Source: Geobacteraceae bacterium (lineage in GTDB: Bacteria; Desulfobacterota; Desulfuromonadia; Desulfuromonadales; BM103). From it: a stretch of 64,000 nucleotides of DNA. Shown in pieces: positions 33,365-37,914 of this stretch. The stretch covers positions 1-64,000 of the forward strand of contig JAHEDT010000010.1 of the NCBI GenBank assembly GCA_024641085.1. Reading direction: 5' to 3'. Within the stretch, counting starts at the first letter, position 1. The number at the start of each line of letters is the position of its first letter. Both the position numbers and the translations under genes were made by a program. The notes beneath the pieces are model-generated. The model ran no database searches, was not told the DNA's origin, and saw only the letters and a list, made by a program, of their open reading frames with translations.

Positions 33365-33991
33365 TCAGGGGCGCGTCTCGTTGGTTGTGTCCGGCAGGCC
33401 GAAATCATGATTGCACCTGGAGAAAAAGTTGCGTATCAGCCGGTAGGTGAGCCCCCACAGGAGGGGCTCCTGCGGTTCCAGAAGTTCAACCACGGGGTGA
33501 GCTCGCTCGACACCACGGTAAAAGAAGGTCCGATACTGCTGTCGCTCAGGTTCCAGGAGCTTCTGCAGGGGACACCAGAAGGCCCTGGCGACTTCGTGAT
33601 TTGGCTGCAATCTTACCGGACCCAGCAGTTGATAGACAAAACAGGACACCAGTACAGGCATGACCGAACCGTAAAGATCATCGAGGCGGCCTAGATATTG
33701 GCTCTGGCTGAGATCAAGCGTCAGCTCTTCGAAGGTCTCACGTACGGCTGCCTGCTGCGGTGTTTCGCCGCTCGGATTGAGCCGCCCGCCCGGGAACCCG
33801 ATGTTTCCCGACCATGGGTCGTGATCATGCTCAGCACGCACGATAAAGAGGACTTCAGGCGAAGAGGCCCTTTCCCTGAGGAGCATGGTGACGGCGGCAT
33901 GTCCGCGATCAGCGGGAGACAATATGATCGGGCTCTGGTTCCCAAGGTGTTGAGCGATGCTGGTGATCTGTAAATTGCTTTTCGCTGTCAT
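33365..33991 (-). CDS. Nudix hydrolase, CoA pyrophosphatase-like
   Basis: About 208 residues from the ATG at 33991, which overlaps the upstream stop as ATGA. The extended Nudix box FPGGRLNPSGETPQQAAVRETFEEL has the REtfEEL core. The layout resembles CoA diphosphatases (NudL/YeaB), which cut CoA into phosphopantetheine and adenosine 3',5'-diphosphate. It is translationally coupled to the chelatase VWA frame, so the two are co-expressed; a functional link is unknown. Confidence 0.85.
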   Translation of the reverse strand: MTAKSNLQITSIAQHLGNQSPIILSPADRGHAAVTMLLRERASSPEVLFIVRAEHDHDPWSGNIGFPGGRLNPSGETPQQAAVRETFEELTLDLSQSQYLGRLDDLYGSVMPVLVSCFVYQLLGPVRLQPNHEVARAFWCPLQKLLEPERQQYRTFFYRGVERAHPVVELLEPQEPLLWGLTYRLIRNFFSRCNHDFGLPDTTNETRP

Positions 33992-34860
33992 GACGTTTGC
34001 GAGGGTCCTGATTGCTCGATAAGTTGCAGCACCTGCTCGGAGCGCAGGTCGTGAATGTGCCGGCATTCGACGCCAAGGGCACGTGCCAGTCGCGGCATGA
34101 GGTTCTGACGCTTCTGGTGCTCAAGGGTTTCTATAACCAGGGCCGGGATCCTCTCCCGGTGCATGTGAGTTGCCAGGGCCAGCGCCTCGTCGACCGGGTC
34201 AGCTCCAGGTTCCAGCGAAACGGTTGCCTCGCCGTCGGAAATCAGAACCATCAGAGGGGTGACACCCCGATGTTTTATCCTGGCTTGGCGAATCACCTCG
34301 CGGGCTTTTTGCAGCCCCGCGGCCAGGGGGGTTGCGCCGCCGACGGGCAGATGGTGCATCTCTTGTCTGACCAGCGTGACGCTTGCTGTGGGCGGGACAG
34401 CCAGCCGTGCTTCTCGGCCGCGAAAGGTGATCAGACAGACCTGGTCGCGGTTCAGATAGGCTCTGGACGCAAGCGCCAGGCAGGCACCGAGAGCCGCCGT
34501 GATGCGCGCCTTGGGGCCGTCACCCATGGAATCCGAGGTGTCGATGACGAAAACCACCAGCCGGCGCCTTGACCGGCTGCGCAGCTGCAGATGCAAATCC
34601 TCTTTCGTGAGTTTCCGCTCCTGATCGGCCCCGGCTGATCGCGCCTGGCGCAGAATCGAGGTATTAAGAGTTCTGCCCAGGTCCAGTGGAGTGCCGGGCT
34701 CTGCATGCTGCCATGGCCGGCTGCCGATGCGTCTGCCGGTGGCAGGTGCCCCGGTTGGCTCAAAGCGCCGGCCAGGTTGTGGCCGGGACAGCTGCTCAAG
34801 ATACAGGTCGATTGTGCTCAGGTCGAGGGAGTCGTCGGCGCAATAATAGCGGTCTTCAAT
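33988..34860 (-). CDS. chlD: chlD-type chelatase, -1 frame extension: linker plus von Willebrand A domain
   Basis: This frame has no good start of its own (first candidate TTG at 34596, no ribosome-binding site) but is open without a stop from the A10 tract at 34869-34860. It encodes IEDRYYCADDSLDLS, an acidic and then proline/arginine-rich linker, and a VWA domain with the MIDAS motif VFVIDTSDSMGDG and SDGEATVS. That is the architecture of the C-terminal half of ChlD/BchD and of cobalt-chelatase medium subunits. A -1 frameshift after decoding AAA at 34862-34860 gives one 675-residue AAA-linker-VWA protein (385 + 290 residues), the normal medium-subunit size. It overlaps the Nudix start by 4 bases. 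Alternative: an authentic mutation or sequencing error in the homopolymer. Confidence 0.8.
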   Translation of the reverse strand: MEDRYYCADDSLDLSTIDLYLEQLSRPQPGRRFEPTGAPATGRRIGSRPWQHAEPGTPLDLGRTLNTSILRQARSAGADQERKLTKEDLHLQLRSRSRRRLVVFVIDTSDSMGDGPKARITAALGACLALASRAYLNRDQVCLITFRGREARLAVPPTASVTLVRQEMHHLPVGGATPLAAGLQKAREVIRQARIKHRGVTPLMVLISDGEATVSLEPGADPVDEALALATHMHRERIPALVIETLEHQKRQNLMPRLARALGVECRHIHDLRSEQVLQLIEQSGPSQTS

Positions 34861-36014
34861 TTTTTTTTTAGATAAGTAAACAACCTGCTGCCAGCTGCAG
34901 CGGCACCTGGGAAGTCCATATTGTCGAGTTCCTGCAGATCATCGTGCTCTCCAGGCCCCTCTGCGTCATGCGCAGCAGCCAACCCAACTCGTCCCTGGTC
35001 CTTCAACCATCCGGACAGCTTGCCGTCGATCTCAGCCTGCGAGAGGATTGCAGTCCCGGGGCAGCGGTGCGCCAGGGCAAAGCCGGCAACTTCAGCCAGG
35101 TCGTCCAGGGTGGCCCTGTCGTGATCCAGCAGGGCGGCCAAGGCTCTGGCCGCACGCACCAGGGCCAGTTCTGCCCTGTGGCCCTGAGCCCTGAGTGCGG
35201 TCGCAATGGCAACCGCGCCATCGATCACCTCGACAGGGATAGTCACGTCCTCCAGGCGGTCTCTGGCGGTTATGACCTGTTGCCGCAGCGCCTCTTCGCG
35301 GTCGCGGTAGTCCTTGCGGAAAGCTGTCGGATCACGGTCAAAAGCAAGCCGTTGTGTGACGATGCGGCGCCTCAGCCCCATATCGTCGAGCCCGGATATG
35401 GTGACGCAGAGTCCAAAGCGGTCGAGGAACTGGGGGCGCAGCTCACCTTCCTCGGGGTTCATGGTGCCGATCAGGATGAAGCGGGCCGCATGACTGAATT
35501 GCAGTCCTTCCCGCTCGACCAGGTTCAGGCCGGAAGCGGCCGTATCGAGCAGCATGTCGACCAGGTGATCGGGCAGCAGGTTGACTTCGTCGACATAAAG
35601 AATGCCGCGATGGGCGGCTGCGAGCAGGCCCGCTTCGAACTGCCGTTGGCCGCTTCGCAGGGTGTGTTCCAGGTGGAGGGTGCCGACCAGGCGATCTTCT
35701 GTGGTCGAGAGGGGCAGGTCGACGAAAGGGGTCTCTATCAATGCCCGCGGCAGAATATCTCCCGCGGCCAGTCTGGCCCGACACCCGTCGTGCAGCTCTT
35801 CAGGCCGCTCGGGGTCGCAGTGGTAGGAGCAGCCCGAAACGACCGCCACTTCCGGGAGCAGCGTTGCCAGAGCCCTGGCAGCGGTCGATTTGGCCGTCCC
35901 CTTCTGGCCTCGCACCAGGACCCCGCCAAGCGCGGGATCGACTGCGCAGAGCAGCAGCGCCGTCTGCATCGTCTCCTGGCCGAGAATGGCGGTGAAAGGG
36001 TAGGTCGCCGGCAT
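34818..36014 (-). CDS. chlD: chlD-type chelatase, zero frame: AAA+ (ChlI-like) subunit
   Basis: 398 residues in the zero frame. AAA+ motifs: Walker A GQKGTAKS (36-43), Walker B ILYVDE (138-143), sensor-like TMNPEEGELRPQFLDRFG. A cysteine set C62/C66/C78 (CSYHCDP) is also seen in cobalt-chelatase small subunits. After LFTYLKKK the zero frame reads 14 more residues (LKTAIIAPTTPST) and stops. As is, the product is a ChlI-sized motor subunit; with a -1 shift it extends into the VWA frame. Magnesium or cobalt chelation needs a large ChlH/CobN subunit, not in this window. It lies 79 bases after a ClC channel gene. Confidence 0.9.
   Translation of the reverse strand: MPATYPFTAILGQETMQTALLLCAVDPALGGVLVRGQKGTAKSTAARALATLLPEVAVVSGCSYHCDPERPEELHDGCRARLAAGDILPRALIETPFVDLPLSTTEDRLVGTLHLEHTLRSGQRQFEAGLLAAAHRGILYVDEVNLLPDHLVDMLLDTAASGLNLVEREGLQFSHAARFILIGTMNPEEGELRPQFLDRFGLCVTISGLDDMGLRRRIVTQRLAFDRDPTAFRKDYRDREEALRQQVITARDRLEDVTIPVEVIDGAVAIATALRAQGHRAELALVRAARALAALLDHDRATLDDLAEVAGFALAHRCPGTAILSQAEIDGKLSGWLKDQGRVGLAAAHDAEGPGEHDDLQELDNMDFPGAAAAGSRLFTYLKKKLKTAIIAPTTPST
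34860..34869 (-). other. A10 slippery tract in chlD
   Basis: Ten consecutive A residues on the coding (minus) strand, read in the zero frame as CTA AAA AAA AAA TTG. Repairing tRNA-Lys one base back gives ATT GAA GAC and the open VWA frame. A10 also favours polymerase slippage (one added or two lost A). A 7-pair hairpin CCGGCCA/TGGCCGG lies about 75 bases downstream (34786-34768), rather far for a classical stimulator; I see no strong Shine-Dalgarno just upstream. Confidence 0.7.
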
Positions 36015-36093
36015 GGTCTTCAGGTGTGCCTCTCGTTAAATGATCTGTCCTTCAGTATCTCAGGAGCCCTTTGCCGGAGTCAATCAGCCGCCA

Positions 36094-37914
36094 TCAATCC
36101 GTCGAATAGTGCTCCTTTTTCTTTTCCATCTCCATGGCGTAGCGGGCCAGTACGGCGCGGCGGGTCAGCATGAACAGCACATGATGGGGGTCCTCATCGG
36201 CAACCACCGGAATTTCCTCCAGCCCGCGGCTTGACAGCTTGCGCATGACTTCCGTCAGGGATTCGTCGGGACTGGTGGTGATGACCCGGGACACGGCGAT
36301 ATCCCTGGCCAGGACCAGGCTCGGTGGAAGCTCTTCGGCGAGGATGCGGCGGATGTCGTTGACCGAGAATATGCCGGTCATCCGCATCTGATTATCGACA
36401 ACCGGGTAGTAGGCTCCGTCGGCAATGGCAATTTTTTCGAGAATCTCCGGTAGGGTCAGATGTTCGGCAATCAGGGTCGGCTTGCGACCATGCTCGTGCA
36501 GGTCGGTGACGCGGATTCCCTCCAGAACATCGACGATGAATTCGCCGAGATGAACCGGTGAATCGATCCGGCTTTTGACCTGTTTCTGGTAAATCGAATT
36601 GCGCGGGTAGACGATCATGGCCACGGTGCAGACCAGCATCAAGGGCGCCAGCAGCCCGTAATTCCCGGTCAGTTCGCTGACCATGATCAGGGTGGCGATC
36701 GGCGTATTCGAGACGCCGGCGAAAAATCCGGCCATGCCGATCAGCACGTAGGCCCGCGGGTCATGGACCATCGCCGGGAAGAGTGCCTGCGCCGAGGCGC
36801 CGAACGTCCCTCCGAGCATGGCGCCGATGACCAGGCTGGGGGCGAAGACGCCGCCGGAACCGCCGGAGGAAATGGTCAGGCTGGTGGCGAGTATCTTGGC
36901 CAGGGCAACGATCAGCATGATCCACAGGGCGACCTTGCCATAGAGGGCGGCCTGCACCATTCCGTAGCCGGATCCAAGCACCTGGGGCACGGCCATGGCC
37001 AGCAGGCCGAGCAGCAAGCCGCCCACGGCAGGTTTGAGCATCACCGGGAAGTCCCACTCTTTGAATTTATGCTGGATGCCGTAGAAACATTTCACGTACA
37101 GCTTGCCGAAGAGAGCGCAGATGATGCCGAGCAGCAGGAAGCAGATGAGTTCCCGTGGATGCTCGAAGCTGAATTGCGGTGTGGCCAGCAACGGCTTCCA
37201 GCCGGTGGTGGCGCCGAACAGGGAGAACGCCGTAATTGAGGAGATGATCGCCGGAATCAATCCTTCATGTTCGAATTCCGGGTTCTTGTAAAGCACTTCG
37301 ACGGCAAACAGGGCTCCACCCAGGGGGGAGCGGAATGTGGCGCCGATGCCACCTGCCATGCCGGCCAGTAACAGAATCCTCCGGTCAGAAGAGGTCAGCC
37401 TGAGCCTGGTGGCGATAAAGGAGCCGAAACCGGCGCCGATCTGTGCAATTGGCCCCTCGCGACCGGCCGAACCGCCGGTGCCGATCGTCGCAATGGAGGC
37501 GAGGCCCTTGATGATCGGCACCCGGCCCCTGATGATGCCGCCCTTGTTGTGAAAAGCGTCAATAGCCGCATCCGTGCCGTGGCCTTCCGCCTCGGGGGCA
37601 AATTTGAAGACCAAAAAGCCTGAAATCAAGCCACCTACGATCGGTACCAGGAAAAGGAACCAGCGATGATCCATGGACAGGCTGTCGATCATGTGGTCGC
37701 CCATGGCGAGGATCCCCTCAGTCCCCTCGCGCGGCGGATGGTAACCGGCCAGGTTGTTCAGGAACAGGTGTTCGACGCTGTTGGTGGCGAAGTAAAACAG
37801 GACCGCTGCGCTACCGGTGACCAGGCCGACCAGCACGCTGAGGATGACCGGGCGGGTCAGCACGCGCCAGTCGAGTTTTTTCAGGGGATTGAGGAGGGTG
37901 TCAAGGTTGGCCAC
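36094..37914 (-). CDS. ClC-family chloride channel/antiporter with CBS domains
   Basis: 606 residues. ClC signatures: GSAGREGPIAQIGAG with the gating Glu in GREGP, and GSGGVFAPSLVIGAMLGG. About ten hydrophobic segments fill residues 20-450; two CBS domains occupy about 470-600, which usually bind nucleotides. Whether it is a channel or a proton antiporter cannot be told reliably. It probably starts the transcription unit that continues with chlD and the Nudix gene. Confidence 0.93.
   Translation of the reverse strand: MANLDTLLNPLKKLDWRVLTRPVILSVLVGLVTGSAAVLFYFATNSVEHLFLNNLAGYHPPREGTEGILAMGDHMIDSLSMDHRWFLFLVPIVGGLISGFLVFKFAPEAEGHGTDAAIDAFHNKGGIIRGRVPIIKGLASIATIGTGGSAGREGPIAQIGAGFGSFIATRLRLTSSDRRILLLAGMAGGIGATFRSPLGGALFAVEVLYKNPEFEHEGLIPAIISSITAFSLFGATTGWKPLLATPQFSFEHPRELICFLLLGIICALFGKLYVKCFYGIQHKFKEWDFPVMLKPAVGGLLLGLLAMAVPQVLGSGYGMVQAALYGKVALWIMLIVALAKILATSLTISSGGSGGVFAPSLVIGAMLGGTFGASAQALFPAMVHDPRAYVLIGMAGFFAGVSNTPIATLIMVSELTGNYGLLAPLMLVCTVAMIVYPRNSIYQKQVKSRIDSPVHLGEFIVDVLEGIRVTDLHEHGRKPTLIAEHLTLPEILEKIAIADGAYYPVVDNQMRMTGIFSVNDIRRILAEELPPSLVLARDIAVSRVITTSPDESLTEVMRKLSSRGLEEIPVVADEDPHHVLFMLTRRAVLARYAMEMEKKKEHYSTD

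Follow-up and report, generated by a model that had tools for sequence, protein, structure and literature searches.

The window analyzed here is a stretch of 64,000 nucleotides from a Geobacteraceae bacterium. Its minus strand carries a chlD-type gene in which the AAA+ frame adjoins the VWA frame and a single frameshift joins the two, which is the layout of frameshifted chlD genes (fs-chlD). The features of the locus are as follows.

36094..37914, minus strand: ClC-type chloride channel gene with CBS domains, immediately upstream of fs-chlD
34818..36014, minus strand: 0-frame ORF of 398 aa, AAA+ ATPase module (ChlI-like, predicted small subunit) with Walker A GQKGTAKST, Walker B YVDE, sensor TMN, and the LDRF arginine
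34869-34860, minus strand: A10 slippery run, CTA AAA AAA AAA TTG, containing A_AAA_AAA in the 0-frame phase
34818..34859, minus strand: 0-frame tail, LKTAIIAPTTPST plus stop, unconserved in sequence and length
33988..34860, minus strand: -1 frame, an acidic and then Pro/Arg-rich linker followed by a VWA domain with a DTSDSM MIDAS motif
33365..34000, minus strand: NUDIX hydrolase gene (CoA pyrophosphatase-like), which overlaps the last part of the VWA frame

Read on the minus strand, the slip site is ...TTT ACT TAT CTA AAA AAA AAA TTG AAG ACC..., and the 0-frame product ends as LKKK-LKTAIIAPTTPST-stop. The -1 frame goes on as KKK-IEDRYYCADD... to the stop at 33988. The predicted long product (medium subunit) therefore comprises 385 residues through the third Lys plus 290 residues of the -1 frame, 675 aa in total. 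A preliminary description of this DNA had given the AAA+ frame as running from 36014 to 34818 with its stop 14 codons past CTA AAA AAA AAA TTG, the -1 frame as open through the linker into a VWA domain with an intact DTSDSM motif, and the product lengths as 398 and 675 residues. All of these numbers were correct when recomputed, and the open -1 frame was seen on the minus strand. For the Walker A motif (around 35905), GQKGTAKST, with A for G, is found in the window and in its two closest relatives; the others have GTGKST. Directly before the run (about 34920-34870, minus strand), the clade described below shows strong conservation of the motif PG[SA]xAAG[ST]xLFxxLKKK, which in the short product would be the C-terminal tail; the linker preceding this motif is variable.

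In comparisons with solved structures, ChlI and BchD were the best relatives of the two halves: the AAA+ half matched ChlI 8osf (E 1.7e-86; 6l8d and 1g8p were also matched, at about 1e-86), and the VWA half matched BchD 2x31 (E 1.4e-22). The NCBIfam model TIGR02442 aligned to both halves in order (model positions 1-314, then 404-638). When the halves were scored apart, the AAA+ half reached 448 bits and the -1 half 173 bits (curated cut-off, 779 bits). A defence-system reading was rejected, as it had only a single weak match.

To survey conservation, we examined 277 genomes of the class and found the clade to which this gene belongs in 22 of them, all of the same order; in one carrier (G002), the gene is broken across two contigs. 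All 22, near-finished assemblies included, have A9 or A10 with the VWA domain in the -1 frame, and the run ends exactly at a 0-frame codon boundary in every case. The 0-frame tails stop 12-63 nt past the run, and none of the 22 clade genes is a single uninterrupted (fused) frame. The three Lys codons of the run are AAA in 22/22, while the Lys codons of these genes upstream of the run comprise 78 AAA and 103 AAG (n = 181). The difference between A9 and A10 is a CTT to CTA substitution without an indel, indicating that indels are not what changes the length of the run. Runs of nine or more A occur only 18 times in the 3.5-Mb genome, and two of these are A10; given this rarity and the recurrence of the same site in all 22 clade genomes, the slip site is not a chance occurrence. 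The other A9 within the window (17108) sits between ORFs. The AAA+ half gave dN/dS values of 0.06-0.17 and the -1-frame half values of 0.07-0.32; judged by these ratios, both halves are under purifying selection. The preliminary description had proposed a programmed -1 shift at poly-A that gives predicted small (AAA+) and medium (AAA+-linker-VWA) subunits, and had suggested checking relatives for conservation of the run and both frames. The conservation in 22/22 genomes supports this proposal; uninterrupted frames in relatives, which the description had named as a refutation, were seen in no close relative. The frameshift is very probably genuine and programmed.

In a wider survey of 80 named loci, 35 were A-run genes with a -1 shift, mostly from Anaerolineae (A9 in 25, A10 in 4, A8 in 2, and A7 in 4). 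All 35 hold A_AAA_AAA in the ribosomal phase, and only one has CobN in the surrounding stretch examined. In the AAA+ tree, the clade of the window (21 Desulfuromonadia rows and two named loci, one of them from Desulfofustis) is split off by a branch with an SH-aLRT of 100. Most of the Chloroflexota genes form another group (SH-aLRT 99), and the genes beside CobN, which are fused or split, are placed elsewhere. Three fused genes within the Chloroflexota clade retain the run (A9, A7, and A9) and meet a -1 stop 12-26 nt past it, while fused genes adjoining CobN are mostly without a run. Among the genes of family f37, from the same phylum, four that are fused still have A10 in this position, and both other frames close within 35 nt of the run; their sister gene L191 has its long product in the -1 frame. 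The long frame among relatives is thus 0 or -1. Since fused relatives keep the run and close the -1 frame with a stop, the two-product output seems to be the conserved property, and selection seems to keep this output whichever frame is long. These frame-inverted relatives amount to a natural experiment for asking whether the ratio of the two products or the shift as such is under selection, and for telling ribosomal from transcriptional slippage. The fused relatives in which the run is kept are L180, L189, L190, L192 (family f37), and L199, together with L088, L092, and L104; their -1 stops lie 12-26 nt downstream, and the +1 frame is closed within 35 nt in most.

Long homopolymers are prone to sequencing errors and can vary in length, so that the split could in principle reflect an error, a pseudogene, or a phase-variable tract. 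The same layout is, however, shared by 22 genomes, among them the one-contig assembly G034 and the two-contig assembly G056, the change in run length is a substitution rather than an indel, and the dN/dS is low in both halves. For the clade, this comparison excludes sequencing error or a pseudogene, and we see almost no chance for this group of explanations. The VWA part could also be a separate protein arising from re-initiation or internal initiation, given the long ORF after the first stop with a TTG at 34596. In this gene, the first possible start codon in the -1 frame lies 263 nt downstream of the run, beyond a conserved stretch, which argues against re-initiation; moreover, the conserved -1 peptide starts right at the run, and the start-less stretch is conserved in near relatives. 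We regard such a separate protein as very improbable.

As to how the programmed shift would occur, ribosomal and RNA-polymerase slippage may each operate at this sequence. Thermus thermophilus dnaX uses transcriptional slippage at an A9 run, and E. coli dnaX uses a ribosomal -1 shift. If RNA polymerase slipped on A9-A10, A11 (and A9) mRNAs would arise and be translated normally. Consistent with this, the run in the clade is never shorter than 9, though A7 suffices for A_AAA_AAA. In f37, A10 is also retained whether the long frame is 0 or -1, and in the fused members neither of the other two frames stays open beyond the 35 nt noted above. A downstream stimulatory RNA structure is usual but not obligatory in fs-chlD (PMC9227772); no conserved structure or covariation was found downstream of the run in the clade, where the mean z was -0.45 versus -0.07 to -0.31 at control offsets and the alifold energy was near 0, although lineage-specific structures would escape this analysis. 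This lack of a conserved stimulator in the clade counts for polymerase slippage. The wider, mostly Chloroflexota set gave a weak stem-loop signal (mean z -0.73 versus about 0 at matched controls). Mixed shift directions have been taken as the mark of transcriptional slippage (PMC3711429), and a toggling long frame can be read along with this; against it, the shift is -1, never +1, in each of the 22 clade genes and of the 35 A-run shifted genes in the wider survey. In the A7/A8 members from Chloroflexota, the phase of A_AAA_AAA is without exception the ribosomal one, which, with the uniform direction, counts in favor of a ribosomal -1 shift. Other chlD sites, placed in E. coli reporters, gave frameshifting of 63% for A11, 40% for A9, and 10% for A7 (PMC3711429), which likewise counts for a ribosomal shift; because efficiency rises with run length, long runs would be selected under either mechanism, which weakens the argument from run length. 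On balance, ribosomal or mixed slippage is favored, and polymerase slippage by itself is a serious but less probable account. Both products would probably be made via -1 ribosomal slippage on A_AAA_AAA aided by the length of the run, with RNA-polymerase slippage possibly contributing too.

The products had been assigned in the preliminary description to the small and medium subunits of cobalt chelatase. In favor of this assignment (or of Mg chelatase), the best curated model, TIGR02442, is named 'putative cobaltochelatase', and Antonov's model for other fs-chlD genes (2020) reportedly has them giving small and medium cobalt-chelatase subunits. However, in this genome, whose assembly is 99.5% complete, the CobN/ChlH large subunit (PF02514), the search for which had been suggested beforehand, is absent, and none of the corrin-ring genes CbiC, CbiD, CbiK, and CbiX was found. 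Among the 22 carriers, CobN occurs in one genome (G082), plus a fragment in another, so that 20 are without it. CbiC, present in 197 of the 277 genomes of the class, is rarer among the carriers (11/22) than among its other genomes (186/255; Fisher p 0.03, with kinship ignored). The six family members bearing the ClC-fs-chlD-NUDIX cluster are all without CbiC. With these partners missing, the assignment is not supported and seems most unlikely, and these gene contents call for giving up the cobalt label in the Geobacteraceae bacterium. No second ChlI/ChlD locus was found elsewhere in the genome, and the unshifted product would therefore be its sole small subunit. Elsewhere in the class, contig C3 of genome G258 carries three chlI/chlD-type genes (L138, L141, and L161) and two CobN genes.

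The ClC gene is linked to fs-chlD in all six family members carrying fs-chlD, and the NUDIX gene is likewise linked to it in this family. The cluster of ClC, fs-chlD, and NUDIX genes (33365-37914; L022-L028) is conserved in the family of the window only. A putative sigma-70-like site lies in the gap between the ClC gene and chlD (36083-36054). Elsewhere, the neighbors vary and include genes for a P-type metal ATPase, an Na/Ca exchanger, a lactate-racemase-like protein, and kinases. A heavy-metal P-type ATPase gene is found downstream of fs-chlD in L151, L152, L158, and L160 (four genomes of one genus), and an Na/Ca exchanger gene follows fs-chlD in L150. No neighbor common across the clade that would point to a target was found, and the neighbors of Chloroflexota fs-chlD genes are not widely conserved. 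Assigning a function from neighbors was therefore rejected, because ClC and NUDIX are restricted to the family and the other neighbors differ.

Taken as a whole, the gene is likely to be a frameshifted chlD without a large subunit, whose two putative products would form an AAA+/VWA ring with a role other than cobalt or Mg-porphyrin chelation. Slippage at A10 would yield the short AAA+ protein and the long AAA+-linker-VWA protein in a fixed ratio, and the two could assemble into a ring of the ChlI/ChlD or NorQD type. ATP hydrolysis would then move the VWA/MIDAS arm to remodel a target, or insert metal into it, the target being other than a cobalt corrinoid or Mg porphyrin. Since the partners for cobalt insertion are absent, this is probably an orphan ChlI/ChlD-like AAA+/VWA motor with another job. 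Against the non-cobalt reading stand the CobN of G082 and the CbiC of 11 of the 22 carriers; against the explanation as a whole, the clade has neither a conserved downstream RNA stimulator nor a common neighbor indicating a target.

The MoxR-type pairs of an AAA+ ring and a MIDAS-bearing VWA partner (NorQD, CbbQO, CoxDE, and RavA-ViaA) remodel a target or load metal into it. By analogy, the working principle is most likely that of AAA+/VWA pairs such as NorQD, in which the ATPase ring moves the VWA arm and opens the target for metal insertion (PMC13036017). Unlike these pairs, the sequence in the window belongs to the chelatase branch and has no target operon adjoining it. Mg-chelatase ChlI/ChlD and cobaltochelatase CobS/CobT (TIGR02442) share the homologous AAA+ and VWA parts in the same order, whereas here two subunits are predicted from one gene in a genome without ChlH/CobN. 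As in dnaX of T. thermophilus and E. coli, two ATPase isoforms would come from one gene with an A-rich slippery run; in contrast to dnaX, the short product here is the unshifted one, and it is the frame-inverted fused relatives that have the dnaX layout.

The closest known systems are the fs-chlD genes of the literature (Antonov 2013, PMC3711429; Kuznetsov 2022, PMC9227772), which likewise have AAA+-linker-VWA split at poly-A with VWA in the -1 frame and are predicted to give small and medium products. Some of these are without a large subunit; such genes were reported in 2022, with their function called unexplored, and the subset includes Spirochaeta thermophila and Brevefilum (Kuznetsov, PMC9227772). 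The clade of the window differs from them in being separate and order-wide (SH-aLRT 100), in having A9-A10 only, and in being without a detectable RNA stimulator, and the genome of the window is without the tested corrin-ring genes. The order-wide clade of fs-chlD without a large subunit is new, and its kind was already known. As a broader possibility, to which we give somewhat less than even weight, these genes may encode an AAA+/VWA machine for remodelling that is widespread in anaerobes and has no relation to metal insertion into tetrapyrroles. Its ring pair would always be produced from one gene by poly-A slippage, and the long frame may flip between lineages with the run and the double output retained. 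Chelatase motor subunits without a large subunit are a kind lacking any assigned role, here in a clade that spans an order, and the unusual conservation pattern makes a real question testable. Because the six family members are without CbiC, the motor can be studied there free of the corrin pathway.
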